Of a DNA stretch of 64,000 nt, positions 10-19,283 are shown one piece after another. Both the position numbers and the translations under genes were made by a program. The DNA is from Octadecabacter temperatus (GTDB taxonomy: Bacteria > Pseudomonadota > Alphaproteobacteria > Rhodobacterales > Rhodobacteraceae). Location of the stretch: contig NZ_CP012160.1 in assembly GCF_001187845.1 (NCBI RefSeq), positions 248,001-312,000 of the forward strand, written 5' to 3'. The notes under the pieces are model-generated. The model did no database searches and was not told where the DNA came from. It worked only from the letters and a program-made list of their open reading frames with translations. Position 1 is the stretch's first letter. Every line of letters starts with the position of its first letter.

Positions 10-306
10 ATGACCACCAAAGCAGAACACTACGACGTGATCCGCAAGCCGATCATCACCGAGAAAGCAACAATGGCGTCTGAAAACAACGCCGTCGTTT
101 TCGAAGTGGCAATCGACAGCAACAAGCCAATGATCAAAGAAGCTGTTGAAGCTCTCTTCGGTGTAAAGGTCAAAGCGGTCAACACTACGATCACTAAAGG
201 TAAGGTAAAGCGCTTCCGCGGCCAGCTTGGTACGCGTAAAGACGTCAAGAAAGCCTATGTGACGCTCGAAGAAGGCAACACAATCGACGTATCTACAGGT
301 CTTTAA
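10..306 (+). CDS. rplW: 50S ribosomal protein L23
   Basis: Complete 98-residue L23, a protein at the peptide exit tunnel that also docks trigger factor and SRP. The N-terminus ([14 protein letters not shown]) and the basic loop [20 protein letters not shown] are family hallmarks. Upstream rplD would lie outside the window; a TAG at 6-8 could be its stop. Unlike most S10 operons, rplB does not follow directly: a terminator comes 47 bases after the stop and rplB starts only at 4156. The last roughly 88 bases of this gene recur in degraded form three times downstream (1876-1945, 2569-2657, 2941-2982). Confidence 0.97.
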
Positions 307-352
307 ATAGATCGGGCCCGTAAGGGTTAAGATACACGGTTGAGAATTAGAA

Positions 353-386
353 AGGCCCCTTGCTGCAAAGCGAGGGGCCTTTTTTC
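353..386 (+). terminator. Rho-independent terminator after rplW
   Basis: AGGCCCCT and AGGGGCCT arms (353-360, 373-380) form a perfect 8-bp stem followed by six Ts. It closes the transcription unit in the middle of what is normally one S10 operon. The flank (TTGAGAATTAGAAAGGCC) resembles the flank of the terminator after the second rplW-end copy. Confidence 0.85.
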
Positions 387-487
387 TTTTGCAGGGATGT
401 ATCTGCAAAATCGTCAGGCAGCGGGACTGGGTAGCAATCAAAAGCACCCTCCCAATGTGTGGCTCCTCGGCAGCTAAACTGCAAAAC

Positions 488-518
488 GAAAAAGGCCCAC
501 GCTGTAATGCTGGGCCTT
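488..518 (-). terminator. Rho-independent terminator for the 59-residue minus-strand gene
   Basis: AAGGCCCA (492-499) and TGGGCCTT (511-518) pair; read on the minus strand the stem is followed by a run of five Ts and then CGTTTTG. It lies 43 bases past the stop of the small gene at 561-740. Confidence 0.7.
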
Positions 519-560
519 CTACACAATACTATTTGGGTGACCTTATTGGGTCAGGTCGGA

Positions 561-740
561 TTAGGCCGCAGAGCGATCGTTACTTTTCGCCATTTCGTCG
601 TACTGCTCAAACAACCGCTCGACAGCGACGGCATGCGGCTCAACTGAAACACGAGCATTGCGATGCCGGATGAGAGCCGAGATAAAGCCTCTAACATTCG
701 AGGTTCTTTCAGTGTTCAGTGTGTTGTTTCCAAACTTCAT
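561..740 (-). CDS. Small hypothetical protein (59 aa), member of a local paralogous pair
   Basis: ATG at 740 is preceded by a strong Shine-Dalgarno AGGGGG (747-752, spacer 6) and the frame runs 59 codons to TAA at 561, followed by a terminator. The product begins MKFGNNTLNT and ends EMAKSNDRSAA; it is charged, with no signal or membrane segment. Its middle and end share NVRG, a spaced R..R.S pattern, V(E/D)RLF and a C-terminal RSA with the 66-residue product at 1526-1726, so the two are probably homologous. Function unknown. The ribosome site, terminator and paralogy together argue that it is real despite its size. Confidence 0.6.
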   Translation of the reverse strand: MKFGNNTLNTERTSNVRGFISALIRHRNARVSVEPHAVAVERLFEQYDEMAKSNDRSAA

Positions 741-771
741 TACGCGCCCCCTCGGCTTACTTACAATTACT

Positions 772-812
772 GCCTCTAATTACATCAGAGGCCTCCCATA
801 CAAGTTAGAGGC
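772..812. repeat. Inverted repeat GCCTCTAA / TTAGAGGC
   Basis: Perfect 8-bp arms at 772-779 and 805-812 with 25 bases between; the loop also contains CAGAGGCC. AGCCTCTAA recurs at 687-695 inside the adjacent small gene. It lies just upstream of the 59-residue gene on the minus strand, so it could be an operator or part of a leader structure. Confidence 0.45.
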
Positions 813-1043
813 GAACTGACTAAGACACGAGAATTGACGCTGGGGAAACTGTCCCAAAGGACAGGATTCGGTTGTGAGATTGCCACCTACATTCTCTGTA
901 AGGGGAAAAGGCCTGAGAATCGCTCAGCGAATCCGTGGGTTACGCCGTGCATGGATCGTTGCGCGCAATGACAACAAGAAACCCAATGCGAGACGGAAGG
1001 CCTTTTCTGGGTCAGGCGATGGGTGTGCTGTTGAAACGAATGA

Positions 1044-1069
1044 GGCCCGCCGTATTGCTACGACGGGCC
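1044..1069 (-). terminator. Weak hairpin downstream of the 55-residue minus-strand frame
   Basis: GGCCCGCCG and CGACGGGCC pair with a single mismatch around TATTGCTA. On the minus strand the stem is followed by TCATTCG, not a T-run, so termination would be weak. Confidence 0.35.
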
Positions 1070-1135
1070 AACTGAGAGTGGAGTGCGCTTGTGATGTAAT
1101 CCTAACTGGGGGGCAAGGTGTCACGCCACGCGGCA

Positions 1136-1303
1136 CTAGGTCAATGGAACAGAGGCACCCGTCACATGTAGCTGCAAAATCTTGAGCGACTGGATCGGAG
1201 CCACATATCGGTGAGTTAAGCCGACATGCAGATTGGCACAGGGTTTTGAATCCGACATCAGAGCCTGCGACGATGTCTCCGCAGTATCTGAGTGATGGTT
1301 CAT
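1136..1303 (-). CDS. Small hypothetical protein (55 aa)
   Basis: ATG at 1303 has a perfect Shine-Dalgarno AGGAGG (1311-1316, spacer 7) and the frame runs to TAG at 1136. The product starts MNHHSDTAETSSQALMSDSK, has one cysteine and no clear membrane segment; I do not recognise it. A longer minus-strand frame over 924-1403 exists in another register but has no ribosome site. The ideal ribosome site is the main support; composition is not strongly coding-like. Confidence 0.4.
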   Translation of the reverse strand: MNHHSDTAETSSQALMSDSKPCANLHVGLTHRYVAPIQSLKILQLHVTGASVPLT

Positions 1304-1463
1304 GTGCTTTCCTCCTGAGCTTCTGTTCGATGAATGTTTCGCATGCGGAGACGACGAAGTCCTGTGGCAATAGAATAGCCGACCGCGCTTTGGTGTGGGT
1401 CACCTATACAATGGGGTAGGTCGTGCTTTTGCGCTGCGCCGGATTGTCCGTGCCCAAGACGCG

Positions 1464-1497
1464 AAAACTCAGCGCCTCATTGAGGAACGCTGAGTTT
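1464..1497 (-). terminator. Rho-independent terminator after the 66-residue gene
   Basis: AACTCAGCG (1466-1474) and CGCTGAGTT (1488-1496) form a 9-bp stem; on the minus strand it ends in TTTTC. It lies about 30 bases past the stop of the gene at 1526-1726. Confidence 0.7.
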
Positions 1498-1525
1498 CAG
1501 ACCGAAGTGGTAGATTTCGGAAGTG

Positions 1526-1726
1526 TTAGGCGGATCGACCCGCATTGAATGTAAAATCCAAATTGGAAAACAACCGGTCAACAACGTCGACGTCTTGGCT
1601 TAGGCGCGGTCCTCGATACGATGTGGACAACCCTCGGACATTGGCTCTGCGTGGCTGCTCGATACGTTGTGACAATGCAGCAATGCGGCCAGCGCGTGCT
1701 TTCATCAAAAGTGTTTGACCTTTCAT
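1526..1726 (-). CDS. Small hypothetical protein (66 aa), paralogue of the 59-residue protein
   Basis: ATG at 1726 follows GGGAGAA (1731-1737), a good Shine-Dalgarno, and the gene ends before a strong terminator. The product is basic in its first half (MKGQTLLMKARAGRIAALSQ) and acidic/hydrophobic later. NVRG, the R..R.S pattern, DVVDRLF and the final RSA match the protein at 561-740; the extra length is at the N-terminus. No known domain is recognised. It forms, with its paralogue, a pair of separately terminated one-gene units in the rplW insert. A small regulatory or antitoxin-like role is conceivable but nothing in the sequence proves it. Confidence 0.6.
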   Translation of the reverse strand: MKGQTLLMKARAGRIAALSQRIEQPRRANVRGLSTSYRGPRLSQDVDVVDRLFSNLDFTFNAGRSA

Positions 1727-1875
1727 TTTCTTCTCCCGTCTAAATCATAATGTACCTCTGTTATGACGGGCGAAGGAGCGGAGGTGGTGCTCTACAGCGG
1801 GTAGTTTACGAGGCGTTGGTGTAGCGACGCTATCCGAAGGGGTAGGTGTCGGAGCGCGGCCAGATCGGCATATCT

Positions 1876-1945
1876 AAAGTCGTGAAGACAGATTATGTTA
1901 CGCTTGTGGAAGGCAACATAGGCCGACGTTTCCACCGGACTGTAA
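1876..1945 (+). pseudogene. Heavily decayed copy of the rplW 3' end (copy 1)
   Basis: This stretch aligns with the last roughly 70 bases of rplW, keeping GTGAAGACAG, TATGTTACGCT, GGAAGGCAACATA, GACGTTTCCACCGG and a TGTAAGG end, with substitutions and a small insertion. It has no start or upstream part. A weak terminator follows, as after true rplW. Most diverged of the three copies, hence probably the oldest. Confidence 0.65.
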
Positions 1946-1967
1946 GGAATGCTTTTACATTTGTTTC

Positions 1968-1993
1968 AGAAAGCCTTTGGTTGTCGGGCTTTT
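1968..1993 (+). terminator. Terminator remnant after rplW-end copy 1
   Basis: AAAGCC (1970-1975) and GGGCTTTT (1986-1993) form a short stem with a T-rich end, in the same relative place as the terminators after rplW and copy 2. Confidence 0.5.
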
Positions 1994-2017
1994 GTCGTTT
2001 CTGATCTCTGGGGTGCC

Positions 2018-2491
2018 TTAGGCCGCGTAGGGCAGGGATGAGTGGTGCAGCACGACCTTCACATTGCCGTCCGCATCTTTCTTGTAGCCAAACGTCTTGT
2101 CCGCTTGCGTGACGTTGCCATCCTTGTCGGTGAAAAACGCCGAGCCCATCCACATGCCGACATCGCCTTCAATGAAACTGGCCGCTTCCTTATACTGAAC
2201 ATCGCGCCAAGGCCGTATCGCAAAGCCCGTGTCGTCGGGGTAGGTGTCATCATGTGCCACGAAATAGGACAACGCGCCCGCCTTGGTGGTGCGGAATGTC
2301 TGCGGCCCACCGCTGAGCGTGGGTTTGAACAAGACAGGGCCAAGGTCATAGCCATAGGCTTCATCTAAAACACCGTTTGCCACGGCCCGCGCGGCATCAA
2401 TGCCCCCGTCCTCAAAGGCTTTTGCGATGGCGAGCAGTTCATCACCCCAAGCGGTGCGTGCTGCGATAAGATCGTCTTGCGTCATTGGCAT
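2018..2491 (-). CDS. COG4337-family protein, putative metal-independent iota-class carbonic anhydrase
   Basis: 157 residues from ATG at 2491, chosen because GGGGA (2498-2502) is a good ribosome site; the open frame continues upstream only into the antisense of an rplW-end copy. The protein resembles a family often labelled phosphoribosyl-AMP cyclohydrolase in databases, with a SnoaL/CaMKII-association-like fold, and ends in HHSSLPYAA. COG4337 proteins from a cyanobacterium and a chlorarachniophyte alga were shown to be carbonic anhydrases without metal; the residues I recall for bicarbonate binding (Thr, Tyr, His, Ser) have counterparts T58, Y76, H149/H150 and S151/S152 with near-matching spacing. 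No signal peptide, so cytosolic. It is alone between two decayed rplW ends. Confidence 0.7.
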   Translation of the reverse strand: MPMTQDDLIAARTAWGDELLAIAKAFEDGGIDAARAVANGVLDEAYGYDLGPVLFKPTLSGGPQTFRTTKAGALSYFVAHDDTYPDDTGFAIRPWRDVQYKEAASFIEGDVGMWMGSAFFTDKDGNVTQADKTFGYKKDADGNVKVVLHHSSLPYAA

Positions 2492-2568
2492 GGCGTATCC
2501 CCGATATCCAAGTTGAGTTTTAGGCTTTACGCGTCTTAAGCAACGCCGCGCCTTATCGCAAGTGTTGA

Positions 2569-2657
2569 GCGGCCAACTCGGCACACGCAAAGACGTCAAG
2601 AAAGCCTATGTGACGCTCGAAGAAGGCAACACAATCGTCGTGAGCACCGGTCTGTAA
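2569..2657 (+). pseudogene. Copy of the rplW 3' end, well preserved (copy 2)
   Basis: Encodes the last 28 residues of L23 ([20 protein letters not shown] then TIVVSTGL and stop) with one amino-acid change (D to V). A block of about 51 bases in its middle (2588-2638) is identical to rplW, while the flanks differ mainly at third codon positions (CAG/CAA, CTT/CTC, GGT/GGC, ACG/ACA, CGT/CGC; TCT/AGC, ACA/ACC, CTT/CTG). That pattern means the flanks diverged under protein-level selection, so this is probably a displaced or imported functional gene end, not a simple recent duplication. There is no start codon. Confidence 0.8.
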
Positions 2658-2684
2658 GGACTGCGGTTACGTTTGAGAATTGAG

Positions 2685-2718
2685 AAGGCCTCGCAGTGTG
2701 AACTGTGGGGCCTTTTTT
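2685..2718 (+). terminator. Rho-independent terminator after rplW-end copy 2
   Basis: AAGGCC.. CGCAG (2685-2696) pairs with CTGTGGGGCCTT (2703-2714) and is followed by six Ts. The preceding TTTGAGAATTGAGAAGGCC matches the sequence before the rplW terminator, so the copied unit extends through the terminator. Confidence 0.8.
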
Positions 2719-2726
2719 GGTATGGC

Positions 2727-2882
2727 TTATTTGAGACCTTTAATCAGAACCCAACTGACCCCATACGCGATGACCGCAACTAGCGGCGTAATCATCAGCG
2801 CGGCACTCGCCCCCGAGTAAAGGACATAAAGAACCGTCGCAATGACAGCGTAAAAGATGGGCTCGCGTAGAAAAATAGACAT
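2727..2882 (-). CDS. Small predicted membrane peptide (51 aa)
   Basis: Frame from ATG at 2882 to TAA at 2727 encodes MSIFLREPIFYAVIATVLYV, a short polar turn (SGASA), then a second hydrophobic stretch ending WVLIKGLK. This predicts two membrane helices with the positive end inside. The ribosome site is weak (GAGCAG). It faces the terminator of copy 2, which is partly bidirectional. No family recognised; a two-helix holin-like or small-subunit protein is possible. Lies between rplW-end copies 2 and 3. Confidence 0.5.
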   Translation of the reverse strand: MSIFLREPIFYAVIATVLYVLYSGASAALMITPLVAVIAYGVSWVLIKGLK

Positions 2883-2940
2883 GGGCTGCTCGAGTTGTTT
2901 TCATAAGTTTGCACCGGATCCGTTAAACATTGCAACGCCC

Positions 2941-2982
2941 ACGGCACACGTAAAGACGTGAAGAAAGCCTGCGGGGCCTTTT
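2941..2982 (+). pseudogene. Short copy of the rplW 3' end fused to half a terminator (copy 3)
   Basis: CGGCACACGTAAAGACGTGA and AGAAAGCCT (2943-2970) match rplW near codons 74-82 with synonymous changes. The match then jumps directly to GCGGGGCCTTTT, the distal arm of the rplW/copy-2 terminator. The gene end between was deleted, leaving a recombination junction 30 bases before the HNH gene. Confidence 0.7.
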
Positions 2983-3993: not shown

Positions 3994-4022
3994 TTGACCT
4001 CTACCCCCATCCCCCCTATCAG
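3994..4022 (+). promoter_or_regulatory. Predicted sigma70 promoter before rplB
   Basis: TTGACC (3994-3999) and TATCAG (4017-4022) are separated by exactly 17 bases. It would restart transcription of rplB-rplP after the insert. The predicted start (around 4029) lies only a few bases before the hairpin at 4036-4057, so that hairpin would form at the very 5' end of the transcript. Confidence 0.55.
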
Positions 4023-4035
4023 ACCCCATCGGCAC

Positions 4036-4066
4036 AGCCCCAGATTCGTCTGGGGCTTTGTTGTTG
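4036..4066 (+). terminator. UUCG-capped hairpin between the HNH gene and rplB
   Basis: AGCCCCAGA (4036-4044), loop TTCG, TCTGGGGCT (4049-4057) make a 9-bp stem followed by TTGTTGTTG, an imperfect T-tract. It may end the HNH transcript, or, given the promoter just upstream, act as a 5' leader structure or attenuator for rplB. The sequence allows either. Confidence 0.65.
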
Positions 4067-4155
4067 TCTGCAGAGACATATCATCGGGCACCTACGGGGG
4101 CCTATAAACATCAGGGCCACGCGAGTGGTCCGCCAAGCAAACGGAAGTAGCAAAC

Positions 4156-4998
4156 ATGGCACTCAAGTCGTATAAACCGACGACGCCTGGCCAACGTGGG
4201 TTGGTGCTGATTGACCGTTCGGAGCTTTGGAAAGGTCGCCCAGTTAAGGCCCTCACAGAGGGTCTGACGAAATCGGGCGGACGGAACAACACCGGACGTA
4301 TCACATCACGTCGTCGTGGTGGTGGGGCAAAACGCCTTTACCGCATCGTAGATTTTAAACGTAACAAGCTCGACATGGAAGCTGTTGTAGCTCGGATCGA
4401 ATATGACCCGAACCGCACCGCATTCATCGCGCTCGTTCAGTACACAGATGGCGAGCAAGCCTACATCATCGCACCACAGCGTTTGGCTGTTGGCGATAAG
4501 GTCATTGCTTCTGCTAAGGCAGACATCAAGCCAGGCAACGCAATGCCGTTCTCTGGCATGCCAATCGGTACAATCATTCACAACATCGAAATGAAGCCAG
4601 GCAAAGGCGGCCAGATCGCCCGTGCAGCTGGAACCTACGCACAGTTCGTAGGTCGTGACGGTGGTTACGCTCAGATCCGTCTGAGCTCTGGTGAATTGCG
4701 CCTCGTGCGTCAGGAATGCATGGCCACCGTTGGTGCCGTGTCCAACCCTGACAACTCCAACCAGAACATGGGTAAAGCCGGACGTATGCGTCACTACGGT
4801 AAGCGCCCATCTGTTCGTGGTGTTGTTATGAACCCTGTCGATCACCCACACGGTGGTGGTGAGGGTCGTACATCCGGTGGTCGTCACCCGGTTACTCCTT
4901 GGGGTAAGCCAACAAAGGGTGCGAAAACTCGCAACAAGAACAAAGCGTCTAGCCGCCTGATTATCCGGTCGCGCCACGCCAAGAAGAAGGGTCGTTAA
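4156..4998 (+). CDS. rplB: 50S ribosomal protein L2
   Basis: 280 residues, full length. L2 helps form the peptidyl-transferase centre and joins the subunits. The characteristic end with [13 protein letters not shown] and the [11 protein letters not shown] segment is intact. First gene after the rplW insert; two bases separate it from rpsS, consistent with one transcript through rplP. Confidence 0.98.
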
Positions 4999-6805: not shown

Positions 6806-6834
6806 TTCGCGATATTCGCATCTGCGAATTCGCG
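6806..6834 (+). repeat. Hairpin directly after rplP
   Basis: TTCGCGATATTCGCA pairs imperfectly with TGCGAATTCGCGG, so a long stem begins at the rplP stop. There is no T-run; it may protect the 3' end of the message ahead of the true terminator 60 bases on. Confidence 0.5.
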
Positions 6835-6894
6835 GAGTGGCGGTAAGCGATTGACCTAGTCAATTGCGGCGCCACACCGGTTCAAAGAATTAGA

Positions 6895-6927
6895 CCTCCG
6901 CCGAGAAATCGGCGGGGGTTTTCTTCT
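6895..6927 (+). terminator. Rho-independent terminator after rplP
   Basis: CCTCCGCCGA (6895-6904), GAAA loop, TCGGCGGGGG (6909-6918), then TTTTCTTCTT. Strong GNRA-capped stem; separates the rplB-rplP unit from what follows. Confidence 0.85.
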
Positions 6928-6980
6928 TCCGAACATCAACCTACCTTGGATCGCAGTGCTAGGGGCGTTGAAAACACAAC

Positions 6981-7334
6981 ATGTTTAGAATTTTCGTGAG
7001 CGTTACTTTGCTTTGGATTGGCGCGATGCCCGTTCTGGCACAGGATATACAAGTAAGGCTCGCGGATGCTGGAATTGCAGAGCATTCTCTGCACGGGACA
7101 GGCATTGAAATGCAGTTTGAAATTCGAGGAGCGCGGGTTCGAGATGTGCCCGATGAATTCCTAAAAGCGCTATGCGATCAGTTTTCGCCTGAGGTTGTAC
7201 CGCTTATTCTAGAACAAAACCCGCAGTTGGAGGCTGACTTTATTGGCGTTCGATTGAAGAGCGGTGGAATAATCGGGAGCTTTGTCTTCGAGGCATTCGG
7301 GTTCGAAGACTCTGGATGTGGTGCCGCAAAATAA
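6981..7334 (+). CDS. Hypothetical periplasmic protein (117 aa)
   Basis: N-terminus MFRIFVSVTLLWIGAMPVLA is a clear signal peptide with cleavage before QD. The mature part has two cysteines (in ALCDQF and SGCGAAK) that could form a disulfide, and the segment RLKSGGIIGSFVFEAFGFED. No family recognised. It lies alone on the plus strand between the rplP terminator and convergent minus-strand genes. Ribosome site is weak. Confidence 0.65.
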   Translation: MFRIFVSVTLLWIGAMPVLAQDIQVRLADAGIAEHSLHGTGIEMQFEIRGARVRDVPDEFLKALCDQFSPEVVPLILEQNPQLEADFIGVRLKSGGIIGSFVFEAFGFEDSGCGAAK

Positions 7335-7346
7335 ATCACAGACGCC

Positions 7347-8027
7347 TCAACCTCCCCAAATCCGCGCCATCCCGCCATCAAACGTTGCCCAGGTCATGGT
7401 CGCGGAATTACCTGCGTGCCCTTCGTAGTACGACCGCCCATTGGGGAGCGGTAATCCTGCCCATATCTGAGCTAGGTTATGCATGAACCTTCGCCTGCTT
7501 AGCTCACCCGCTTGGAACCGTGACAGCCCTGCGTCTTCCAGCAACACCAATGCCAGTGCGTCTTGCACGCCAGCAGTGAACGGGGTTTCTGGGCCGAACC
7601 CGCGAACATCAGCCACGCGCCGTAGCGTGCTCGGGATGAACTGGTAACGCCCGATCGCGTGCGGTTGGCCGGGGGTGTCGGCGATCCATTGATAGATTTC
7701 GCCCAGTGTCATGTCCGTGGGCCGATGCGCTGGCTTCACACGTGCGCCGTGTTGCACGGCATCGTATCCTGCGGACCCCGCTTCAGCGCGGGCGATGAGG
7801 CTGAGCAGGTGGTCGACAGGATCACTCCCCGTTCCGACCTTTGGCGCAACTTCCAAGCTCGGTTCGGGTCGGGGGGCGAAGAAGCCAATCTGCGGATCAG
7901 ATGCAAACAGGCTGGCGCGGGTGGCGATTTCGGGGGCGGCAGTTGCGCGTGGGAAGAGGGAGCTCAATTCCGCGCTGGCGGCCTGCGCCGAGCAGACCAT
8001 TATAGACACCAACCATATCCGAACCAT
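7347..8027 (-). CDS. Secreted lysozyme-like muramidase/transglycosylase
   Basis: 226 residues. Signal peptide MVRIWLVSIMVCSAQAASA, then a low-complexity linker (about 22-70), then a lysozyme-fold domain: the catalytic glutamate is probably in LIARAEAGSAGYDAV, followed by AIGRYQFIPSTL, the typical A.G.YQ(F/I) motif of phage lambda-type endolysins and lytic transglycosylases. It would cut peptidoglycan in the periplasm. The domain is full length to the end (MARIWGG). Neighbours are two oxygenases on the same strand, not a phage cassette. Confidence 0.7.
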   Translation of the reverse strand: MVRIWLVSIMVCSAQAASAELSSLFPRATAAPEIATRASLFASDPQIGFFAPRPEPSLEVAPKVGTGSDPVDHLLSLIARAEAGSAGYDAVQHGARVKPAHRPTDMTLGEIYQWIADTPGQPHAIGRYQFIPSTLRRVADVRGFGPETPFTAGVQDALALVLLEDAGLSRFQAGELSRRRFMHNLAQIWAGLPLPNGRSYYEGHAGNSATMTWATFDGGMARIWGG

Positions 8028-8103
8028 AAAACCGCACCCCTTCTGAGTTCAGGGCGGGTATGATGGTTAATCGTTGACGGTTGGTTTCAGGGGCGTTGGA
8101 AAA

Positions 8104-8712
8104 CTATTCCCATTTGTAATTAAAACTTACGGAAATCCGGTCGTCCTCGGACATGTTCATCGGGACTTCGTGGCGCAGCCAGCTTTCCCAGAGCAACACA
8201 TCGCCAACGGCGGGCTTCACGTAGACGAACTGCTTCAGCTCCTCGCGGCAGTCTTTCTTGCGCGACGGCGCGGCCATCATCATCTGTGCGCGCGGGTCTT
8301 CCAGCTTTAGCGCAGAGGCGCCCTCGGGCATTTTCACGTAGGTCGTGCCGGAAATGACGGAATGGGGGTGTATGTGGGACGTATGAATGCCGCCCTCGGG
8401 CAGGATGTTGATCCAGATATCTTCCAGCACCAGCTTGCGATCATCTAGATCGAACTCCAAATCCTCGGCAAACGCCGCGACATGGGCGTCGAGCGCATTG
8501 ACGACTTGCTGAAAGATCGGAAACCGCCACGGCAGATCGGTCAGCGAGGCATAGGACGTGTAGCCGGGGAAATCATTGGCCTCACACCACTCATTGCCTG
8601 CATCGTCATCCTCGGCAATGGAATAGCAAGACGCACGCAGCTCATCGGGGTCGATGGGGCCCAGCGTGGATTGATAAAGGCGGGTGGCGAAGAGGGATTT
8701 GATTTTGGTCAT
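8104..8712 (-). CDS. TIGR02466-family 2-oxoglutarate/Fe(II) oxygenase
   Basis: 202 residues from ATG at 8712, chosen over an upstream TTG because GAGAAG lies just before it. The double-stranded beta-helix motifs are visible: HTSHIHPHSVISGTTYVKMP (iron ligands), DPRAQMM, PAVGDVLLWESWLRHEVPMN (distal His) and RISVSFN (Arg for 2-oxoglutarate). Members are found in marine bacteria and cyanophages; substrates are unknown. Same strand as the second oxygenase upstream with a 28-base gap, so probably co-transcribed. Confidence 0.85.
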   Translation of the reverse strand: MTKIKSLFATRLYQSTLGPIDPDELRASCYSIAEDDDAGNEWCEANDFPGYTSYASLTDLPWRFPIFQQVVNALDAHVAAFAEDLEFDLDDRKLVLEDIWINILPEGGIHTSHIHPHSVISGTTYVKMPEGASALKLEDPRAQMMMAAPSRKKDCREELKQFVYVKPAVGDVLLWESWLRHEVPMNMSEDDRISVSFNYKWE

Positions 8713-8740
8713 ACTTCTCAATTAAGCCCTTCACGTAACT

Positions 8741-9745
8741 TCAACCATCCCCAAAATGTTCGATTTCAGCCTGGCCCGCAGCGCGCAGCTGTGCCGCGAC
8801 GTCTGACATGTCATCTGCCATGTCACTAAGGTTATCGGCCATTGCATCGGTGTCTGTGTGAAATGTGAAGCCTGCGATCTCAGCCGCAAGTCGTTCACGC
8901 ATCATCCATTGCCGGTGGCGCAAGTATTCCGCGCCAACAACATGCGTTGGATCGACCAGTGACAGTTGATCAAAGCGTGAGAAATCGGGAAAACGCACGT
9001 CGCGCGGGACATAACCGTTCACCATCGTAATCCGCTCGCCTGCTGCTTGAAGGCCTTTAGCGCGGTGCACAACCATATTGCCTTGCTGCAAGATCGCGTA
9101 CCCGGGGCCAGGCATATCGGGTGAAACAACTTTAGATTCGTCCAGCGGCTCACCCGCCTTTTTGCGCGCTAGGAATTCATCTTTGGTGCCGCGATAATAT
9201 TGAAACTCGCCACCCTCTACCGATTTAGGATCTGTGACAAACATTACGTAATCAATGCGCAGCGTATCTACGTGCCATTTGTCGACATTTTCACCAACAG
9301 TCTCTGGGTTGTAGTTCAGGTGTCCAAGCTGGTGCGGGATTGTGTGGGGCAACAGCGGAATACCGCAAATACCCGACATGAATTTCGTAACCTCTGGGTG
9401 CAGGCAAAGATCGCGTAGAAATTTGGACCGATAAGCGCCGCCGCGGACATTTCGAGCGATCCGCGCATTGGATGTGGTGAAAGCCTCAAGCAGGTGGGCA
9501 ACCTCTAACAATGCTGCAGCACCTTCGTCTGACAGAATGCGAAACACGGATGTTGCACCAAATGAGGTGGGGCAGGCGGCGATCTCGGTGTCAGAATAAC
9601 CGAGATCGGCAAGTGAATAGACTTCGGCTGGCGCTTCAAGCTGCAGGTGCTTGACTGGATCAAAAACAGGCTCATTCGTGAGTGCAGCAAATCCCTCAGG
9701 GAGCGTATCTGGGAACGGCATTTCTTGGGCGAGGTAAGTGGTCAT
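8741..9745 (-). CDS. Putative Fe(II)/2-oxoglutarate dioxygenase
   Basis: 334 residues from ATG at 9745 with AGGAGA upstream. The iron triad can be read as H and D in WHVDTLRIDYVMFV and the His of GNMVVHRAKGL; GERITMVNGYVPRD supplies the 2-oxoglutarate Arg, and GGEFQYYRG is a typical jelly-roll strand. An acidic C-terminal stretch with MADNLSDMADDMSDVAAQL predicts a short helix. Substrate unknown. First gene of a two-oxygenase unit placed inside the ribosomal cluster between rplP and rpmC. Confidence 0.7.
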   Translation of the reverse strand: MTTYLAQEMPFPDTLPEGFAALTNEPVFDPVKHLQLEAPAEVYSLADLGYSDTEIAACPTSFGATSVFRILSDEGAAALLEVAHLLEAFTTSNARIARNVRGGAYRSKFLRDLCLHPEVTKFMSGICGIPLLPHTIPHQLGHLNYNPETVGENVDKWHVDTLRIDYVMFVTDPKSVEGGEFQYYRGTKDEFLARKKAGEPLDESKVVSPDMPGPGYAILQQGNMVVHRAKGLQAAGERITMVNGYVPRDVRFPDFSRFDQLSLVDPTHVVGAEYLRHRQWMMRERLAAEIAGFTFHTDTDAMADNLSDMADDMSDVAAQLRAAGQAEIEHFGDG

Positions 9746-9833
9746 AGTCGCGTCTCCTGTGCTACTGTAGAGAAACAGGAATTTTTACCTGTGACAATTG
9801 AATTTGCGTTGCAAAACTCGTTGCTACAAGGGG

Positions 9834-9862
9834 TTGCCACACACCTAAACACCCCCTATACG
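9834..9862 (+). promoter_or_regulatory. Predicted sigma70 promoter for the rpmC-rpmD operon
   Basis: TTGCCA (9834-9839), 17-base spacer, TATACG (9857-9862). It lies about 90 bases before rpmC, immediately downstream of the divergent oxygenase genes, and would drive the spc block separately from rplB-rplP. Confidence 0.6.
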
Positions 9863-9954
9863 CCCCCAATCTACCCACTCCATCGGAGATTCGGGTTACG
9901 TTTGTGCGCTCTGTATGAACCGCTCGCCGATGATGTTGCAAAAGGAGTCGTCCA

Positions 9955-14218: not shown

Positions 14219-14241
14219 CGCTTAACTTCGAGACTGAATTG

Positions 14242-14274
14242 AAAGCGCTCCGCCTTGTGGCGGGGCGTTTTTTG
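14242..14274 (+). terminator. Rho-independent terminator after rpmD
   Basis: AAGCGCTCCGCC, loop TTGT, GGCGGGGCGTT with a run of Ts continuing to 14273. It marks the third interruption of the ribosomal cluster. Confidence 0.85.
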
Positions 14275-14315
14275 TTTAGCGTTACGAGAGATGATAAAAT
14301 AGCGGGAGAACGCTC

Positions 14316-14885
14316 ATGCAATTTAGACGAGTTCTCAAGTTTGGTCTCATCGGCTATTTTGCAATAATTCTGGGCGTCTTCTTTTTGCAACTCGCTGCTA
14401 TGAGATTTCCTGCCCTGCAACGCGGTATCTACACTGTTGCTCCTGCTCAGGTCGTTTTCTGGACACAAGGGATCTTTTTCGAGACGTCGGATTTCACAGC
14501 GGGCTACTTCTCACAGCCCCGACCTTTCATATCGCAGAAACCAATTGCAGGGCTTTCGGAAACTGACGTTTTTGTAGGAATCCTAAACAACGGGGAGGAC
14601 GAATCGCAAGTTGCCGCTTTGGTTGGGACCAACCTCGTTACTACCGAGACTATTTCATCGTTCTTGGATAGCGGGGCAGGCTTTGTAAGAATTGACTCAG
14701 CCGCATTGACCATTTCGCTTCGTGCGTTCCCGCTACAAGCGGAGAGGAGTACGATAGTTTTGGCCAATTCTCAGTCGGAAGAATTACCTGATGAAGCGAA
14801 CTGCAATGGCCGGGCCCTCTACGGACAAATATTCATGTTCGAAAGCATTGGTAATCTGGGTGATTGTTCGATTGAGCCAAACTAG
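14316..14885 (+). CDS. Hypothetical membrane-anchored protein (189 aa)
   Basis: One N-terminal hydrophobic helix (about residues 9-31, LIGYFAIILGVFFLQLAAM) preceded by QFRRVLK, so a signal anchor with the rest in the periplasm. The body is beta-rich with two cysteines (NCNGRALYG, GDCSIEPN) that could pair. GGGAGAA ribosome site. No family recognised. It stands alone between the rpmD terminator and the decayed ilvA fragment. Confidence 0.6.
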   Translation: MQFRRVLKFGLIGYFAIILGVFFLQLAAMRFPALQRGIYTVAPAQVVFWTQGIFFETSDFTAGYFSQPRPFISQKPIAGLSETDVFVGILNNGEDESQVAALVGTNLVTTETISSFLDSGAGFVRIDSAALTISLRAFPLQAERSTIVLANSQSEELPDEANCNGRALYGQIFMFESIGNLGDCSIEPN

Positions 14886-14952
14886 AATGACCCACTTTGT
14901 TGAATGACACTGAGGGCGTTCAAGCGGCGCGAAAACTTCGGATCACTTAATA

Positions 14953-15116
14953 ACCCTGACCCCCGGCCTGATCCAGCAGACCTAAGCCGTGATCAACGAC
15001 GCGACCATTTGTTCGCCGATCAACCACACCACGCGCTTTTCGATGCAACGGGGAGTCGATCAGCACCTCAAGATCGAGCACCTACGGCAAACCAATACGC
15101 TTCATTTCGGGGGAAG
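14953..15116 (+). pseudogene. Decayed fragment of a second ilvA 5' end
   Basis: Translated in one frame, this stretch gives TLTPGLIQQT, then an in-frame TAA where intact IlvA has Tyr, then a continuation with DATI, TRFSMQ, LKIEHL and TN at the same spacing as residues 5-58 of the intact IlvA at 16146. More than half of about 53 aligned residues agree. No start codon or later part remains. It is in the same orientation as intact ilvA and lies on the other side of ppk2. Confidence 0.75.
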
Positions 15117-15189
15117 TTTTCTATTCTAGTCCTAGTTTGATCTGAGTCAGAGACGTGTTTCCGCTAACTTGATTAACCGTATGTGAACA

Positions 15190-15219
15190 AAAGAGGCATC
15201 ACATAAAGAGGCATCACAT
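15190..15219 (+). repeat. Perfect 15-bp tandem repeat over the ppk2 ribosome-binding site
   Basis: AAAGAGGCATCACAT occurs twice head to tail (15190-15204 and 15205-15219). Each copy carries an AGAGG Shine-Dalgarno; the second ends in the AT of the ppk2 start codon. Confidence 0.85.
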
Positions 15220-16078
15220 GACGGATACAACGAACGGCGCGACGCTCATCGGCTTTGAAAAAGGCAAGTACCCATACTCAGATCGCATGAAGCGAGGCGA
15301 GTATGAGAAACAGAAAGCCGACCTTCAGGCCGAGCTCCTTAAGGTCCAACACTGGGCCGCCGAGACGGGTCAGCGGTTTGTGATGCTGTTTGAAGGTCGC
15401 GATGCGGCTGGTAAGGGCGGTGCGATCAAGCGGTTCACCGAACACATGAACCCGCGAAACGCCCGCGTTGTCGCGCTGAACAAACCCACAGACGAAGAGC
15501 GCGGGCAGTGGTTCTTCCAGCGATACATCAAACACCTCCCCAGCTCCGGTGAAATCGTGCTCTATGACCGTTCTTGGTACAACCGTGCCGGCGTTGAGCG
15601 GGTCATGGGGTTCTGCGAGCCGCATGAATATCTCGAATTCATGCGCCAGACGCCAGAATTTGAACGCATGCTCACACGATCCGGCGTCAAACTTTATAAG
15701 TACTGGTTCTCGGTCACTCAGGAGGAACAAGCGAAACGCTTTAAGTCACGTGAAACTGACCCATTGAAGCGCTGGAAGCTGAGCCCGATCGACAAAGCGA
15801 GCCTTGATAAATGGGAAGACTATACTGAAGCGAAAGAGGCGATGTTCTTTTACACAGACACCGCCGATGCGCCTTGGACCGTGATCAAGTCTGACGACAA
15901 GAAACGTGCCCGCCTTGCTTGCATGCGCCACTTCCTGGCCAACCTGGACTACCCTGAAAAGGACCACGACATTGTGGGTCAGCCGGATGGCAAAATTGTC
16001 GGGCAAGCAAGCCATGTGCTGCATCAAACGGACCACATTCTGGCGACATCATTGCATCCGGATCAAAAGCGCGGCTGA
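15218..16078 (+). CDS. ppk2: Polyphosphate kinase 2, class I-like
   Basis: 286 residues. PPK2 transfers phosphate between polyphosphate and nucleotides (class I mainly makes ATP/GTP from diphosphates). Walker A GRDAAGKGG (60-68), the lid-proximal arginines in KRFTEHMNPRNAR, and the Walker B-type segment YDRSWYNRAGVERVMGF (116-132) are intact; length fits the single-domain class. Translation starts in the second copy of a duplicated ribosome site. It is followed by ilvA on the same strand after 67 bases. Nucleotide preference cannot be read from sequence. Confidence 0.92.
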   Translation: MTDTTNGATLIGFEKGKYPYSDRMKRGEYEKQKADLQAELLKVQHWAAETGQRFVMLFEGRDAAGKGGAIKRFTEHMNPRNARVVALNKPTDEERGQWFFQRYIKHLPSSGEIVLYDRSWYNRAGVERVMGFCEPHEYLEFMRQTPEFERMLTRSGVKLYKYWFSVTQEEQAKRFKSRETDPLKRWKLSPIDKASLDKWEDYTEAKEAMFFYTDTADAPWTVIKSDDKKRARLACMRHFLANLDYPEKDHDIVGQPDGKIVGQASHVLHQTDHILATSLHPDQKRG

Positions 16079-16145
16079 CGCGCGTTGACAGGGGCAGGGT
16101 GACAACCGAAAGTCCACGGACCGTTTCGCAAAAGGATGCGCCAAA

Positions 16146-17366
16146 ATGGCCCGTGTGACCCTGACCCCTGAGCTGATCCAGCAAACCTACAGCGCGATCC
16201 GCGATGCGACTATTCGCACGCCGACCATCCATGCGACGCGTTTGTCGATGCAGCTTGGGATTGATCTGTACCTCAAGCTTGAGAACCTCCAGCACACCAA
16301 CGCGTTCAAGGCCCGTGGAGCCTTGGCAAAGCTGCTGACGCTGACGGAAGCGCAAAAACAAGCGGGTGTGATTGCATGTAGCGCTGGGAACCACGCGCAG
16401 GGTGTGGCCTATCACGCGACTCGCCTTGGCATTGCCAGCACAATCGTTATGCCTGAAGGCACGCCCTTCAATAAGGTCAAACGCACTGAAGATTTTGGTG
16501 CGACGGTAATCCAGCACGGCACGGATTTTGACGACTCTGTGCAATTTACGCTCGACCTTGCGGCGAAGGATGGGCTGACGTTCATTCATCCGTTCGATGA
16601 TCCGGTGGTGGCTGCAGGGCAGGGGACCGTCGCGCTTGAAATGCTCGAGGACCAGCCGGACCTTGATGTCATCGTTGTTCCTGTTGGCGGTGGTGGGTTG
16701 ATTGCGGGGATGGCTGTCGCGGCGAAGTCCGTGAAGCCAGATGTTCAGATCATTGGCGCGCAGGCGGAAATTTTTGATGCCGTGAAATCCGCAGTCGACG
16801 GGACCCCGAACCATTTCGCGGGCGCGACCCTTGCGGAAGGGATCGCCGTAAAGGCACCAGCCGCCGCCAATGTTGAGATCATCAAATCCTTGGTGGATCG
16901 AATTGATGTGGCGAGTGAGGCAGAAATTGAAGACGCGGTGTTTGATCTGTTGTCAGCTGAGAAATTGGTTGCCGAAGGTGCCCCCGGGGCAGGGCTGGCT
17001 GTGATCAAGAACAATCTTGCGGCATATGCGGGCAAAAAGGTTGGTCTTGTGATCTGTGGCGGGAATATCGACAGTCGCTTATTGTCGACTCTCATCCTAC
17101 GCGGTTTGGTGCGCGATGGCCGCATCACCCGCCTAACATTTGAAATCGATGACACTCCGGGTCAGTTGGCGGACATTTCGCGCATCATCGGTGAAACGGG
17201 CGCCAACGTCGTTGAAGTTATCCACCAACGCATGATGCAATCGGTGTCGTTGAAACAGGCGGAGCTGGACGTGGTGATCGAAGCACGTGACATCGGGCAC
17301 GTCGAGGCCATCGTCGCCACCCTTCGCGGGCAGGGGTTCAAGGTGCGGACGGATAGCGGCGTTTAG
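16146..17366 (+). CDS. ilvA: Threonine ammonia-lyase (threonine dehydratase)
   Basis: 406 residues. PLP enzyme converting threonine to 2-oxobutyrate, first step to isoleucine. The PLP lysine is K55 in TNAFKARGAL; the PLP-phosphate loop is SAGNHAQG; GGGGLIAG is also present. The C-terminal part (about 325-400, TFEIDDTPGQLADISRIIGE) is a single ACT domain, as in the short, possibly catabolic type. Its stop overlaps the convergent acyltransferase by 4 bases. A decayed copy of its 5' end lies 1.2 kb upstream. Confidence 0.93.
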   Translation: MARVTLTPELIQQTYSAIRDATIRTPTIHATRLSMQLGIDLYLKLENLQHTNAFKARGALAKLLTLTEAQKQAGVIACSAGNHAQGVAYHATRLGIASTIVMPEGTPFNKVKRTEDFGATVIQHGTDFDDSVQFTLDLAAKDGLTFIHPFDDPVVAAGQGTVALEMLEDQPDLDVIVVPVGGGGLIAGMAVAAKSVKPDVQIIGAQAEIFDAVKSAVDGTPNHFAGATLAEGIAVKAPAAANVEIIKSLVDRIDVASEAEIEDAVFDLLSAEKLVAEGAPGAGLAVIKNNLAAYAGKKVGLVICGGNIDSRLLSTLILRGLVRDGRITRLTFEIDDTPGQLADISRIIGETGANVVEVIHQRMMQSVSLKQAELDVVIEARDIGHVEAIVATLRGQGFKVRTDSGV

Positions 17367-18466
17367 GGCTTAGCAAACCTAAGACGAAGCCACCGCGCTG
17401 CAGGTTTTTCAAAATATCGGTTTGTAAGATAGGCCACGCCAATACTGGCAGCCAAAAACGCAGGCAAAGCCCAGTAAGTCCCTGCAAAACTGCGATCGCC
17501 ACCGAACGCGACGTCCACGATGATCAACACGAAGATCTGAAGCGGAATGTGGACCAGATAAAGACTGTAACTGATATCGCCCAAAAACCGCACGACGCTG
17601 CCGGTTCTGCTGACGTGGTTTTCTAGCATTGCCATTGCTAGAACCACGCTACAGCAGGCCGAAATCAGAAAGGCATTGTGTTGTTGGTTCACAAACCCAA
17701 ACCACCCAAACGCAATCAGCCCGACTAAAAGAAGCCCGACCTTTGAGGATTGCCCGCCAAAGGCGCGAAAGGCGGCAAAACATGCGGAACCAGCGAAAAA
17801 GAATACCGCACACACAAACACCCATTGTCCGATAATGAATGCTTCGGGCCGAACTGTTAGGGCGGCGTAGGACGCGGCGGATAACAGTAAACTCATGATC
17901 AACGGATTGCGCTTTGTAAGTGGAAGCGTTGCGAAAAACAGAATGTAGACGAAAATCTCGGCAGAGACCGACCAGATTGGGGCGTTGAAACTGTTCCCGT
18001 CTGATAGGTTTAAACTGGTATCCAGCATGAAAACCTGAAGAACAAAGTGTTTTAGGTCGTTGTTACCCACAATTTGCCAATGCCCAGTGCCCTTTAGGCT
18101 GATGATCTGCAGAGCCGCGACGATAATCAGCGTTACGAAATGCAGCGGGTACAGTCGTGCAAACCGCGCGACTGCAAACTGCCTGAAATCCGTGCCTCGT
18201 GACCAATAGACATGGGCGAATACAAAACCTGAAATGACCCAGAACAGCCGAACAGCTTCTTCTCCGTATAGATAGATGGGCCAGAGGAATGTTGTGTAAG
18301 GCACGCTTTCAACGGCGACGGGTATAACCGGAACGTCCGCACTCGGCATATAGAAACGGGTATAGTGAAAAACGGCGATGCAAATCGCAGCAATACCGCG
18401 TAATGCGTCTATCCACCCGAAATAGGTCGGCACCTTTCGGTCTTGTGTTGAATGTAACGGTATCAA
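17363..18466 (-). CDS. Membrane acyltransferase (acyltransferase-3/OafA family)
   Basis: 367 residues with about ten hydrophobic helices. The N-terminal motif WIDALRGIAAICIAVFHYTR contains the conserved Arg and His of the family, which moves acyl groups (often O-acetyl) to surface sugars across the inner membrane. Typical later motifs (ISYSLYLVHIP near 300, RYFEKPAARWLR at the end) are intact. Convergent with ilvA, divergent from rplO. Substrate cannot be told. Confidence 0.85.
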   Translation of the reverse strand: MIPLHSTQDRKVPTYFGWIDALRGIAAICIAVFHYTRFYMPSADVPVIPVAVESVPYTTFLWPIYLYGEEAVRLFWVISGFVFAHVYWSRGTDFRQFAVARFARLYPLHFVTLIIVAALQIISLKGTGHWQIVGNNDLKHFVLQVFMLDTSLNLSDGNSFNAPIWSVSAEIFVYILFFATLPLTKRNPLIMSLLLSAASYAALTVRPEAFIIGQWVFVCAVFFFAGSACFAAFRAFGGQSSKVGLLLVGLIAFGWFGFVNQQHNAFLISACCSVVLAMAMLENHVSRTGSVVRFLGDISYSLYLVHIPLQIFVLIIVDVAFGGDRSFAGTYWALPAFLAASIGVAYLTNRYFEKPAARWLRLRFAKP

Positions 18467-18552
18467 AAACGGTACTGACCAATGCTAGGGAGATCGCCTT
18501 CAACGTGTCAGAGAAAGAGCGTTTTTGCTAGTTCGTTTCTGGGTTGCAATGC

Positions 18553-18581
18553 TTGACCGGCAAACCGCGCAGGTCTATACG
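18553..18581 (+). promoter_or_regulatory. Predicted sigma70 promoter for rplO-secY-adk
   Basis: TTGACC (18553-18558), exact 17-base spacer, TATACG (18576-18581), about 95 bases before rplO. Very similar to the rpmC promoter (same TATACG). Confidence 0.65.
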
Positions 18582-18674
18582 CCGCCAGTGGTCACATTTG
18601 TGTCCACTGATTCACATTAACGCCGCGTGCCTATTCCGTCGCTGGGATAGGTCTTCCGGCAAGGAGACAGCGAC

Positions 18675-19148
18675 ATGGTTAAGCTAAACGAACTTCACGA
18701 CAATCCAGGCGCAACGAAACCACGCAAGCGCGTTGGTCGTGGCCCGGGTTCCGGCACCGGTAAAATGGGTGGCCGTGGTATCAAAGGTCAAAAATCCCGT
18801 TCCGGTGTTGCTATTGGCGGCTACGAGGGCGGCCAAATGCCTTTGTACCAACGTCTGCCAAAGCGCGGCTTCAACAAGCCGAACCGCAAGAAATTTGCAG
18901 TTGTGAACCTTGGTCTGATCCAAAAGTTCATCGACGAAAAGAAACTCGACGGTAAAGTGATCACTGAAGATTCACTCGTTGCGTCCGGTCTTATCCGCCG
19001 CAAGCTCGACGGTATTCGCGTTCTTGCTAAGGGCGAAATCACAACAAAAGTTAGCATTGAAGTCACTGGTGCATCCGCTGGTGCGGTTGCTGCAGTTGAG
19101 AAAGCTGGCGGAAAATTGACCGTTAAGGCACCTGCTGCGGCGGAATAA
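18675..19148 (+). CDS. rplO: 50S ribosomal protein L15
   Basis: 157 residues starting [20 protein letters not shown] with the glycine-rich basic stretch [26 protein letters not shown] ribosome site. A hairpin separates it from secY. Confidence 0.98.
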
Positions 19149-19195
19149 CACCTTGTGAGGGGCGGCAACGCCCACTACATCGTTAATCGACTTAG

Positions 19196-19232
19196 ACGCC
19201 GCCGCTTGGTCACCCTTGCTGGCGGCGTTTTC
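19196..19232 (+). terminator. Hairpin with T-tail between rplO and secY
   Basis: ACGCCGCC (19196-19203) and GGCGGCGT (19221-19228) with TTTTC. A partial terminator or attenuator that would lower secY/adk relative to rplO. Confidence 0.6.
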
Positions 19233-19283
19233 ATAATTAGATCGAGCCCGCGTGGTTCACCCGAATAGATAGGCAACAAATCA

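Follow-up and report, generated by a model that had tools for sequence, protein, structure and literature searches.

Displaced rplW 3' ends and variable cargo inside the S10 operon of Octadecabacter temperatus and other Rhodobacteraceae

The rplW-rplB interval of Octadecabacter temperatus

Few bacterial gene orders are as conserved as that of the S10 operon, a common marker region in phylogenetic studies. In the window analysed here, a 64,000-nucleotide stretch of the chromosome of the marine bacterium Octadecabacter temperatus (NZ_CP012160.1, positions 248,001 to 312,000 of the forward strand), two adjacent genes of this operon, rplW and rplB, are separated by 3.85 kb, and three remnants, w1, w2 and w3, each derived from the rplW 3' end, cut the interval into blocks of cargo (Table 1). 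The initial annotation had reported three partial copies of the rplW 3' end in the orientation of the gene, and all three are genuine and on the plus strand. Their borders required some revision: the first copy, placed at 1876-1945, ends as given and begins earlier, at about 1855, and the third, placed at 2941-2982, is clear over 2941-2970 only. Compared with the rplW gene of the window, w1 is 72.5% identical over 91 nucleotides (nt) and w2 86.5% over 89 nt, while the 28 nt of w3 show 89% identity to this gene and 96% to rplW of another locus (L117). Decay does not follow position, contrary to what had been proposed, since the second copy is better preserved than the first. The block of about 51 identical bases noted in the second copy is real and measures 49 nt, joining rplW nucleotides 229-277 (window 238-286) with window 2589-2637. 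A run of this length has a probability of 0.0003 if the 12 mismatches among the 89 nt are placed randomly and of 0.0007 if they are confined to genus-variable sites.

Table 1. Features of the rplW-rplB interval and its borders, in window coordinates
Feature	Position	Strand	Evidence or remark
Intact rplW (ribosomal protein L23)	10..306	+	PF00276, 112 bits
Intrinsic terminator 3' of rplW, 16 pairs and T run	349..384	+	Terminator scan
Cargo block A, with small minus-strand open reading frames (ORFs) 561-740, 1136-1303 and 1526-1726	307..1854		ORF list
w1, displaced rplW 3' end	1855..1945	+	Same junction as intact rplW end and c2 in G001 (locus L032)
Cargo gene c2, 157 aa (putatively COG4337, after the initial annotation)	2018..2491	-	ORF; Pfam, nothing better than E 0.03
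w2, displaced rplW 3' end with the 49-nt block identical to rplW	2568..2657	+
w2 tail, imperfect hairpin and T run, of the rplW tail type native to the genus	2686..2718	+	By eye
Small hydrophobic peptide, 51 aa	2727..2882	-	ORF alone; no Pfam match
w3, displaced rplW remnant	2941..2970	+	Clear over these positions only
HNH-endonuclease-like protein, 311 aa	3013..3948	+	PF01844, 20.6 bits, E 5e-4, just below the 21.4 cut-off
Promoter-like sequence upstream of rplB (TTGACC, 16 nt, CTATCA)	3994..4021	+	Motif
Stem-loop with T-rich tail 5' of the L2 leader, putatively attenuator-like	4036..4057	+	Terminator scan
L2-Alphaproteobacteria ribosomal protein leader	4086..4153	+	RF03142, 54.8 bits (gathering cut-off 37.8)
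rplB (ribosomal protein L2), at the right edge of the hotspot	4156..4998	+	ORF; query of the junction survey

A variable junction in a conserved operon

The survey covered the rplW loci of 98 non-redundant genomes, the named ones being nearly all Rhodobacteraceae, with one (L086) labelled Nocardioides. Both genes were found in 81 of the 98 loci, and among these the rplW-rplB interval ranges from 114 to 8122 bp with mostly differing content, 73 intervals exceeding 300 bp (median about 1970) and 8 being short. When 16 junctions from rplC to rplR were compared (15 to 98 loci each), only rplW-rplB and rplP-rpmC proved variable, and none of the remaining junctions exceeds 169 bp. These patterns support the earlier proposal that the S10 operon holds a cargo hotspot, and relatives with a short rplW-rplB junction, which had been suggested as something to look for, do exist. 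In other families of the class the junction measures 2-31 bp in all 20 picked genomes. Of another 20 members of the family, mostly picked for a diverged rplW, 16 have a junction of 33-166 bp and three one of 611-1620 bp, while one has no rplB in the stretch. Long intervals are thus a feature of part of the family. The remaining 17 of the 98 loci lack rplB behind rplW in the stretch examined (L050/L097, L072, L074, L091, L108, L109, L115, L125 and others), some of them because the contig or stretch ends. Several show seemingly ordinary chromosomal genes behind rplW, as if a rearrangement had split the operon there.

The cargo differs between genomes, as had been expected: 118 of 170 ORFs of at least 100 aa occur in one genome only, as against 79 of 166 at rplP-rpmC, so that gene turnover between these two core genes is high. 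Most complete intervals are 1-5 kb long and hold few genes. A Pfam and PADLOC scan in three sets, covering 135 of the 156 cargo ORFs of at least 110 aa in complete intervals (among the Pfam families listed, 25 of 34 for set A1 and 25 of 46 for set A2), recovered several defence-type genes, namely an AbiP2-like reverse transcriptase, a cyclase of the type found in cyclic-oligonucleotide-based antiphage signalling systems (CBASS), two OLD/GajA-like ATPases, and AIPR and SIR2_2 domains. Fatty acid desaturase, aldose epimerase, YceI and MarR genes were also found, and transposase domains are few (rve, DDE_3 and IS110). The c2 gene of the window is present in 4 of 19 Octadecabacter genomes, each time beside rplW, and in 4 of 72 genomes searched outside the genus, in one of which (G035) it lies on a contig other than that of rplW. 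The minus-strand ORFs of block A gave no match in a Pfam search to E 1. By their common V-[DE]-R-L-F stretch and short repeats, ORFs 561-740 and 1526-1726 resemble paralogues, and they possibly represent a tandem family of small proteins.

Both borders of the interval carry signals of their own. Of 90 long or open intervals, 88 have a terminator-like hairpin no more than 130 nt from rplW, compared with 21 of 90 single mononucleotide shuffles. The RF03142 leader of rplB was also detected in 8 of 11 other loci scanned, and of three short-interval loci one (L103) has the L2 leader, the other two (L046 and L061) scoring below threshold. A sequence resembling the stem-loop at 4036-4057 is present upstream of rplB in other members of the genus. 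A promoter-like motif, picked after these sequences had been viewed, precedes rplB in 23 of the 73 long intervals, with 3.4 expected from shuffles, and in none of the 8 short ones; being present in only this fraction, it was dropped as a family-wide feature. As rplW ends in a terminator-like hairpin of its own, and rplB has its own leader and, in part of the family, a promoter-like site, an insert between them need not break the operon. We conjecture that the junction opened stepwise: the two genes were first direct neighbours, a stem-loop and leader then came between them, and finally rplW acquired a terminator and rplB a start of its own.

Displaced rplW 3' ends across the family

The rplW genes of the 98 genomes were compared by BLAST with the intervals of these genomes or, for the 17 loci without rplB, with the open stretch behind rplW (310 kb in total), and 536 kb downstream of rplB from 81 genomes served as a control. 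Matches were found at 26 places in 15 of the 98 genomes, all on the plus strand, the control yielding one marginal minus-strand match; displaced rplW ends in the intervals exceed chance. The 26 places are not independent, some being common by descent (for example, w2 of the window and its counterpart in L032; L094 and L102), and two more plus-strand places (L077 and L094), each found with a single query, are excluded from the count. Of the 73 long intervals that are complete, 14 account for 25 of the 26 ends. The locus thus shows a gene end displaced in direct orientation with the functional end kept, as do islands inserted at gene 3' ends. Most copies reach the stop codon, and their 5' edges lie at rplW nucleotides 163-233, with 25 of 26 within 193-233 and one at 163. 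The longest remnant, in L092, matches its own rplW over 133 nt with 98.5% identity, and it is one of the two most identical, together with the L090 copy (98.7% over 75 nt). An additional displaced end in L038 was recognised by synteny only, and that of L077 is marginal. In the genus member G014 an internal rplW fragment (C1:3924573-3924671, residues 18-50, 76%) lies distant from the rplW gene.

The initial annotation had most copies followed by their own terminator. In the window the only plus-strand terminators that the scan lists in the region are those after rplW and before the L2 leader; by eye, w2 has an imperfect hairpin and T run, and at w3 no hairpin is discernible. Across all genomes a terminator-like hairpin is present within 130 nt of 18 of the 26 displaced copies as against 6 of 26 single shuffles (one stem mismatch allowed).

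Comparison with other Octadecabacter genomes

By its ribosomal genes the genome G001 (locus L032) is the sister of the window, with 10% synonymous differences. The segment of the window comprising w1, c2, w2 and its tail (1846-2708 from the rplW start) aligns with 208-1085 of G001 in a single alignment of 880 columns at 84% identity. As the aligned segment of G001 begins in its intact rplW, w1 of the window corresponds to the working rplW end of G001, which supports the earlier proposal that an older rplW end was pushed downstream. Block A has no counterpart in this sister and is partly common to O. algicola (L038; 72% over 855 columns), which is further from the window (21% synonymous differences). 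Either recombination between rplW and w1 removed block A from G001, or the lineage of the window gained it, and both scenarios place a border in the rplW end. Orthologues of w2 are found in L032 and, decayed, in L038, in which w1 is mostly lost. Beginning within about 10 nt of the rplW stop in L035 (G005), in L038 and in the window (307-330), a stretch of 15-20 nt resembles an older native rplW end by eye, being of the GGCCTGTAAGGGTTAGG type, and it is perhaps a displaced end without cargo.

In the flanking genes, 4.5% of synonymous codons differ between loci L034 and L038, yet the two have no cargo DNA in common. Their rplW genes differ at 3 of 60 synonymous codons within codons 1-66 and at 9 of 30 within codons 69-98, in a pair picked from the 40 closest pairs shown, many of which lack such a step. 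The L077/L087 pair is similar (0 of 64 and 6 of 30 synonymous codons), and both patterns resemble a replaced 3' third. On the whole, divergence of the 3' third of rplW relative to its 5' part is 1.55-1.73 in close pairs and 1.15-1.18 in distant ones.

The tails behind the rplW ends were also compared. Four displaced tails, namely those of w2 of the window, of L032, of L044 and of the second copy in L034, score 38.5-48.5 with the intact tail of L040, a member of the genus, versus 23.5-28.5 outside the genus, the w2 tail having L040 as its best intact match (38.5 versus 27.5 for the best outside). The first displaced tail of L034 scores 25.0 inside the genus and 32.0 outside, as would be expected of an earlier imported end, and the tails of w1 and w3 are decayed beyond placement. 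Among present rplW tails, those of L034 (27.5 inside, 32.0 outside) and L044 (33.5 and 36.0) lack affinity to the genus, that of L032 is even (38.5 and 37.5), and that of the window is common to L038 (56). The expectation that displaced ends would be closest to other genera is therefore not borne out as a rule, with 4 of 7 Octadecabacter tails native and 13 of 15 tails of the Ruegeria group scoring higher inside their group (one equal, one lower; both displaced tails of L128, the grouping of which is loose, score higher outside). Import shows more in the functional end, because it is the present tails of L034 and L044 that score higher outside the genus. Switching of the Ser95 codon between codon classes was considered as proof of replacement and rejected: at 17 steps it ranks first among 36 conserved serines but cannot be told apart from the two that follow, at 15 and 14. 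Taken together, these sequence comparisons support the view that the rplW 3' end and the cargo behind it can be replaced as a unit, with the older end and its tail staying downstream as the border of the next block.

Shuffled blocks in the Ruegeria group

In Ruegeria strains the same cargo blocks occur in varying order, mostly split by rplW ends. Writing w for a displaced end, L090 carries rplW, c3-c13 and w; L101 and L085 carry rplW, c0, w and c3-c14; L089 carries rplW, c1, w and c3-c14; L094 and L102 carry rplW, c63, w, c0 and w; and L078 and L080 carry rplW, c53, w, c1, w and c0. These arrangements support gain, loss and reordering of blocks with borders at rplW ends. In the aligned copies the stop codons of c0 and c1 lie by eye about 10-25 nt upstream of the remnant. 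The rplW tail appears to be fused into the reading frame of c1 in L089, L072, L073 and L077, as though an illegitimate join had occurred and no end had been displaced.

The rplP-rpmC junction and other interruptions

The second variable junction, rplP-rpmC, spans 3.1 kb in the window (6806-9954), and in 51 of the 53 loci for which it was measured it is longer than 300 bp. It holds variable cargo together with a conserved resident minus-strand gene in 38 of the 51, which makes it an imperfect control for rplW-rplB. Two weak matches to rplP were seen there, covering inner parts of the gene only. Candidate copies of other gene parts were noted at both junctions and none was accepted, namely rplB (3 places), rplP (2) and rplD (3) at rplW-rplB, and rplP and rpmC (2 weak places each) and rplW (2) at rplP-rpmC. 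A third interruption of the ribosomal cluster lies at about 14219-19280 of the window, before secY (19284), and the ORFs between ribosomal genes there include, by eye, a polyphosphate kinase 2-like (15218-16078) and a threonine ammonia-lyase-like one (16146-17366).

Origin of the displaced ends

Given the above observations, the rplW-rplB junction is probably an insertion hotspot operating without an integrase and driven by homologous recombination, in which the older rplW end is pushed downstream as a block border; we favour this reading with some confidence. Incoming DNA bearing an rplW 3' end with cargo behind it would recombine in the last third of the resident rplW. An ectopic join of its other end, at the old rplW end or close to it, would leave a hybrid, functional rplW together with a displaced end. 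With direct repeats in place, crossovers between rplW and a remnant, or between a remnant on incoming DNA and one on resident DNA, could add or remove whole blocks. Recombination of the RecA type would carry this out, and the DNA might be supplied by gene transfer agents, which are common in Rhodobacterales, or by transformation (a DprA gene is present; being widespread, it proves nothing). Since a longer direct repeat would excise the insert that it flanks, remnants of about 70-105 nt would be expected to persist. As shorter repeats, for their part, go undetected, a fixed site is not needed to account for the limited spread of remnant lengths. The initial annotation had itself named repeated homologous recombination with imported rplW-linked DNA as an alternative, and this fits better than the integration resembling that at tRNA genes to which it gave prominence. 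What stands of the latter proposal is the hotspot, its variable cargo, the block borders and the displaced older end; foreign affinity of the displaced ends, a gradient of decay and a fixed core are not supported.

The same data might be read as integration of cargo circles at the rplW 3' end by a site-specific recombinase acting in trans, with the remnants as attR-like sites and the blocks as integron-like cassettes. This would account for displaced ends that lie on one strand, mostly reach the stop codon and have their 5' edges in a narrow zone, for their occurrence with rplW and not with rplP, and for Ruegeria cargo stopping shortly before the remnant as in compact cassettes. We consider it unlikely, as the edges are nevertheless spread from 163 to 233, as synonymous identity is not raised in the 3' third of rplW (0.54-0.59 identical codons versus 0.53-0.77 elsewhere in the gene) and gives no sign of a core conserved at the DNA level, and as the 49-nt identical block with diverged flanks resembles a recombination tract. 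Nor, in agreement with the initial annotation, was a tyrosine recombinase found at the locus in searches restricted to this type (serine and other types were not searched for): a profile built from 20 integrases of the genus, run without a positive control, detected none in 6208 six-frame peptides from the 98 intervals or open stretches, BLAST gave a single 20-residue match in L035, and among the places listed for PF00589 in 19 genomes of the genus none lies in the interval (the end of which is not fixed in G014).

The absence from the intervals of an integrase detectable by this profile, together with the small size and few genes of most of them, also makes it quite improbable that full integrative elements once entered at rplW, lost their integrase later and left the remnants as scars, in the manner of cis-mobilizable elements (CIMEs) at tRNA-island sites. 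Displaced ends and stacking are nonetheless reminiscent of accreted islands, and tyrosine recombinases are common elsewhere in the genus, at 2-60 per genome in all 19 genomes. Least probable is that the rplW end was simply duplicated in place and that unrelated insertions came later, the displaced ends having no tie to cargo uptake. The highly identical copies of L092 and L090 could be such self-duplications, but the match of four Octadecabacter displaced tails to L040 over any outside tail, the functional tails of L034 and L044 that are no closer to the genus than to outsiders, the recurrence of cargo blocks bordered by rplW ends in different orders, and the occurrence of the w1 junction of the window as the functional end in G001 all speak against it.

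Several observations, however, weigh against the homologous recombination hotspot favoured here. A generic process should have left some displaced rplP ends, and none was found in the 51 variable rplP-rpmC intervals (140 kb), which disfavours a wholly generic mechanism. The raised 3' ratios are seen in rplP too (1.88 and 1.21), the switching at Ser95 is only weakly special, and three of the 7 Octadecabacter displaced tails, like both of L128, show no native affinity. The clustering of 25 of 26 edges at nucleotides 193-233 is what a fixed recombination site would also yield. Displacement is visible in a minority, 83 of 98 genomes having no displaced end by BLAST, and in a protein search of 296 family genomes a second rplW match was found in 4 of the 283 with rplW (G000, G215, G315 and G347, the last three counted without inspection); displaced ends recognisable at the protein level are rare across the family. 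In the Ruegeria strain L082, c1, c3-c13 and c0 follow one another in this order with no recognisable rplW end between them. Finally, no carrier of an rplW end of this family was seen among the records listed, with none of this family among the 15 listed of 57 plasmid records with rplW, no identity to rplW above 60% in 14 phage records, and no rplW match in viral contigs.

Relationship to known systems and significance

Displaced gene ends are a hallmark of integrase islands at tRNA genes, where CIMEs are also known, and integrative and conjugative elements (ICEs) have sites at the 3' ends of protein-coding genes as well. The rplW locus resembles these islands in that incoming DNA regenerates the gene end, the old end is displaced in the same orientation, and accretion is serial; it differs in that no integrase was found, no fixed core was shown, and complete intervals are mostly 1-5 kb. 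With chromosomal integron arrays it shares modular blocks, a strain-dependent order and a repeat between blocks, but no IntI or other tyrosine integrase was found at the site, and what repeats between the blocks is part of a gene for a ribosomal protein. Though the locus works somewhat like both, the missing integrase (tyrosine type; serine types were not searched for) precludes its membership in either class.

Hotspots without integrases, with recombination at the flanking core genes, have been described by Oliveira et al. (2017, PMC5635113). To judge from the portions of that work dealing with them, they share with the rplW locus a high turnover between conserved neighbours, the lack of an integrase and the proposed recombination at flanking core genes, and they differ in that the rplW site lies inside a ribosomal protein operon, its turnover was compared over the genera of one family, and its blocks are delimited by displaced ends of the left gene in place of a double exchange at the flanks. 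Formation of merodiploids in transformation by alternative repeat pairing (Johnston et al. 2013, PMC3784515) is comparable in that imported DNA and a repeat can give a duplication by unequal crossing over, but the tandem duplications reported there span about 100-900 kb and the rplW locus duplicates a gene end only. Integrase-free hotspots are thus known already; a version internal to an operon and delimited by gene ends did not appear in the open-licence literature searched, in which we recognised no paper on such a hotspot at rplW, and in that literature it appears to be new.

More speculatively, and with considerable doubt, one might regard these blocks as recombinase-free cassettes of the Rhodobacteraceae, in which some 70-105 nt of coding sequence from the rplW 3' end, together with the terminator, would serve as a mobile homology site and travel with the cargo genes, RecA alone would insert, stack, reorder and remove cargo including anti-phage defence genes, and the essential rplW would regenerate at every insertion. 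On the evidence presented here, one junction of the S10 operon has become open to the entry of foreign genes in much of the family, among them defence genes of the CBASS, reverse transcriptase and OLD/Gabija-like types. The remnants constitute a readable record of successive insertions, through which the order of integrase-free gene uptake could be studied directly. Phylogenies based on ribosomal proteins call for caution, since an rplW gene can carry a 3' third of foreign origin.

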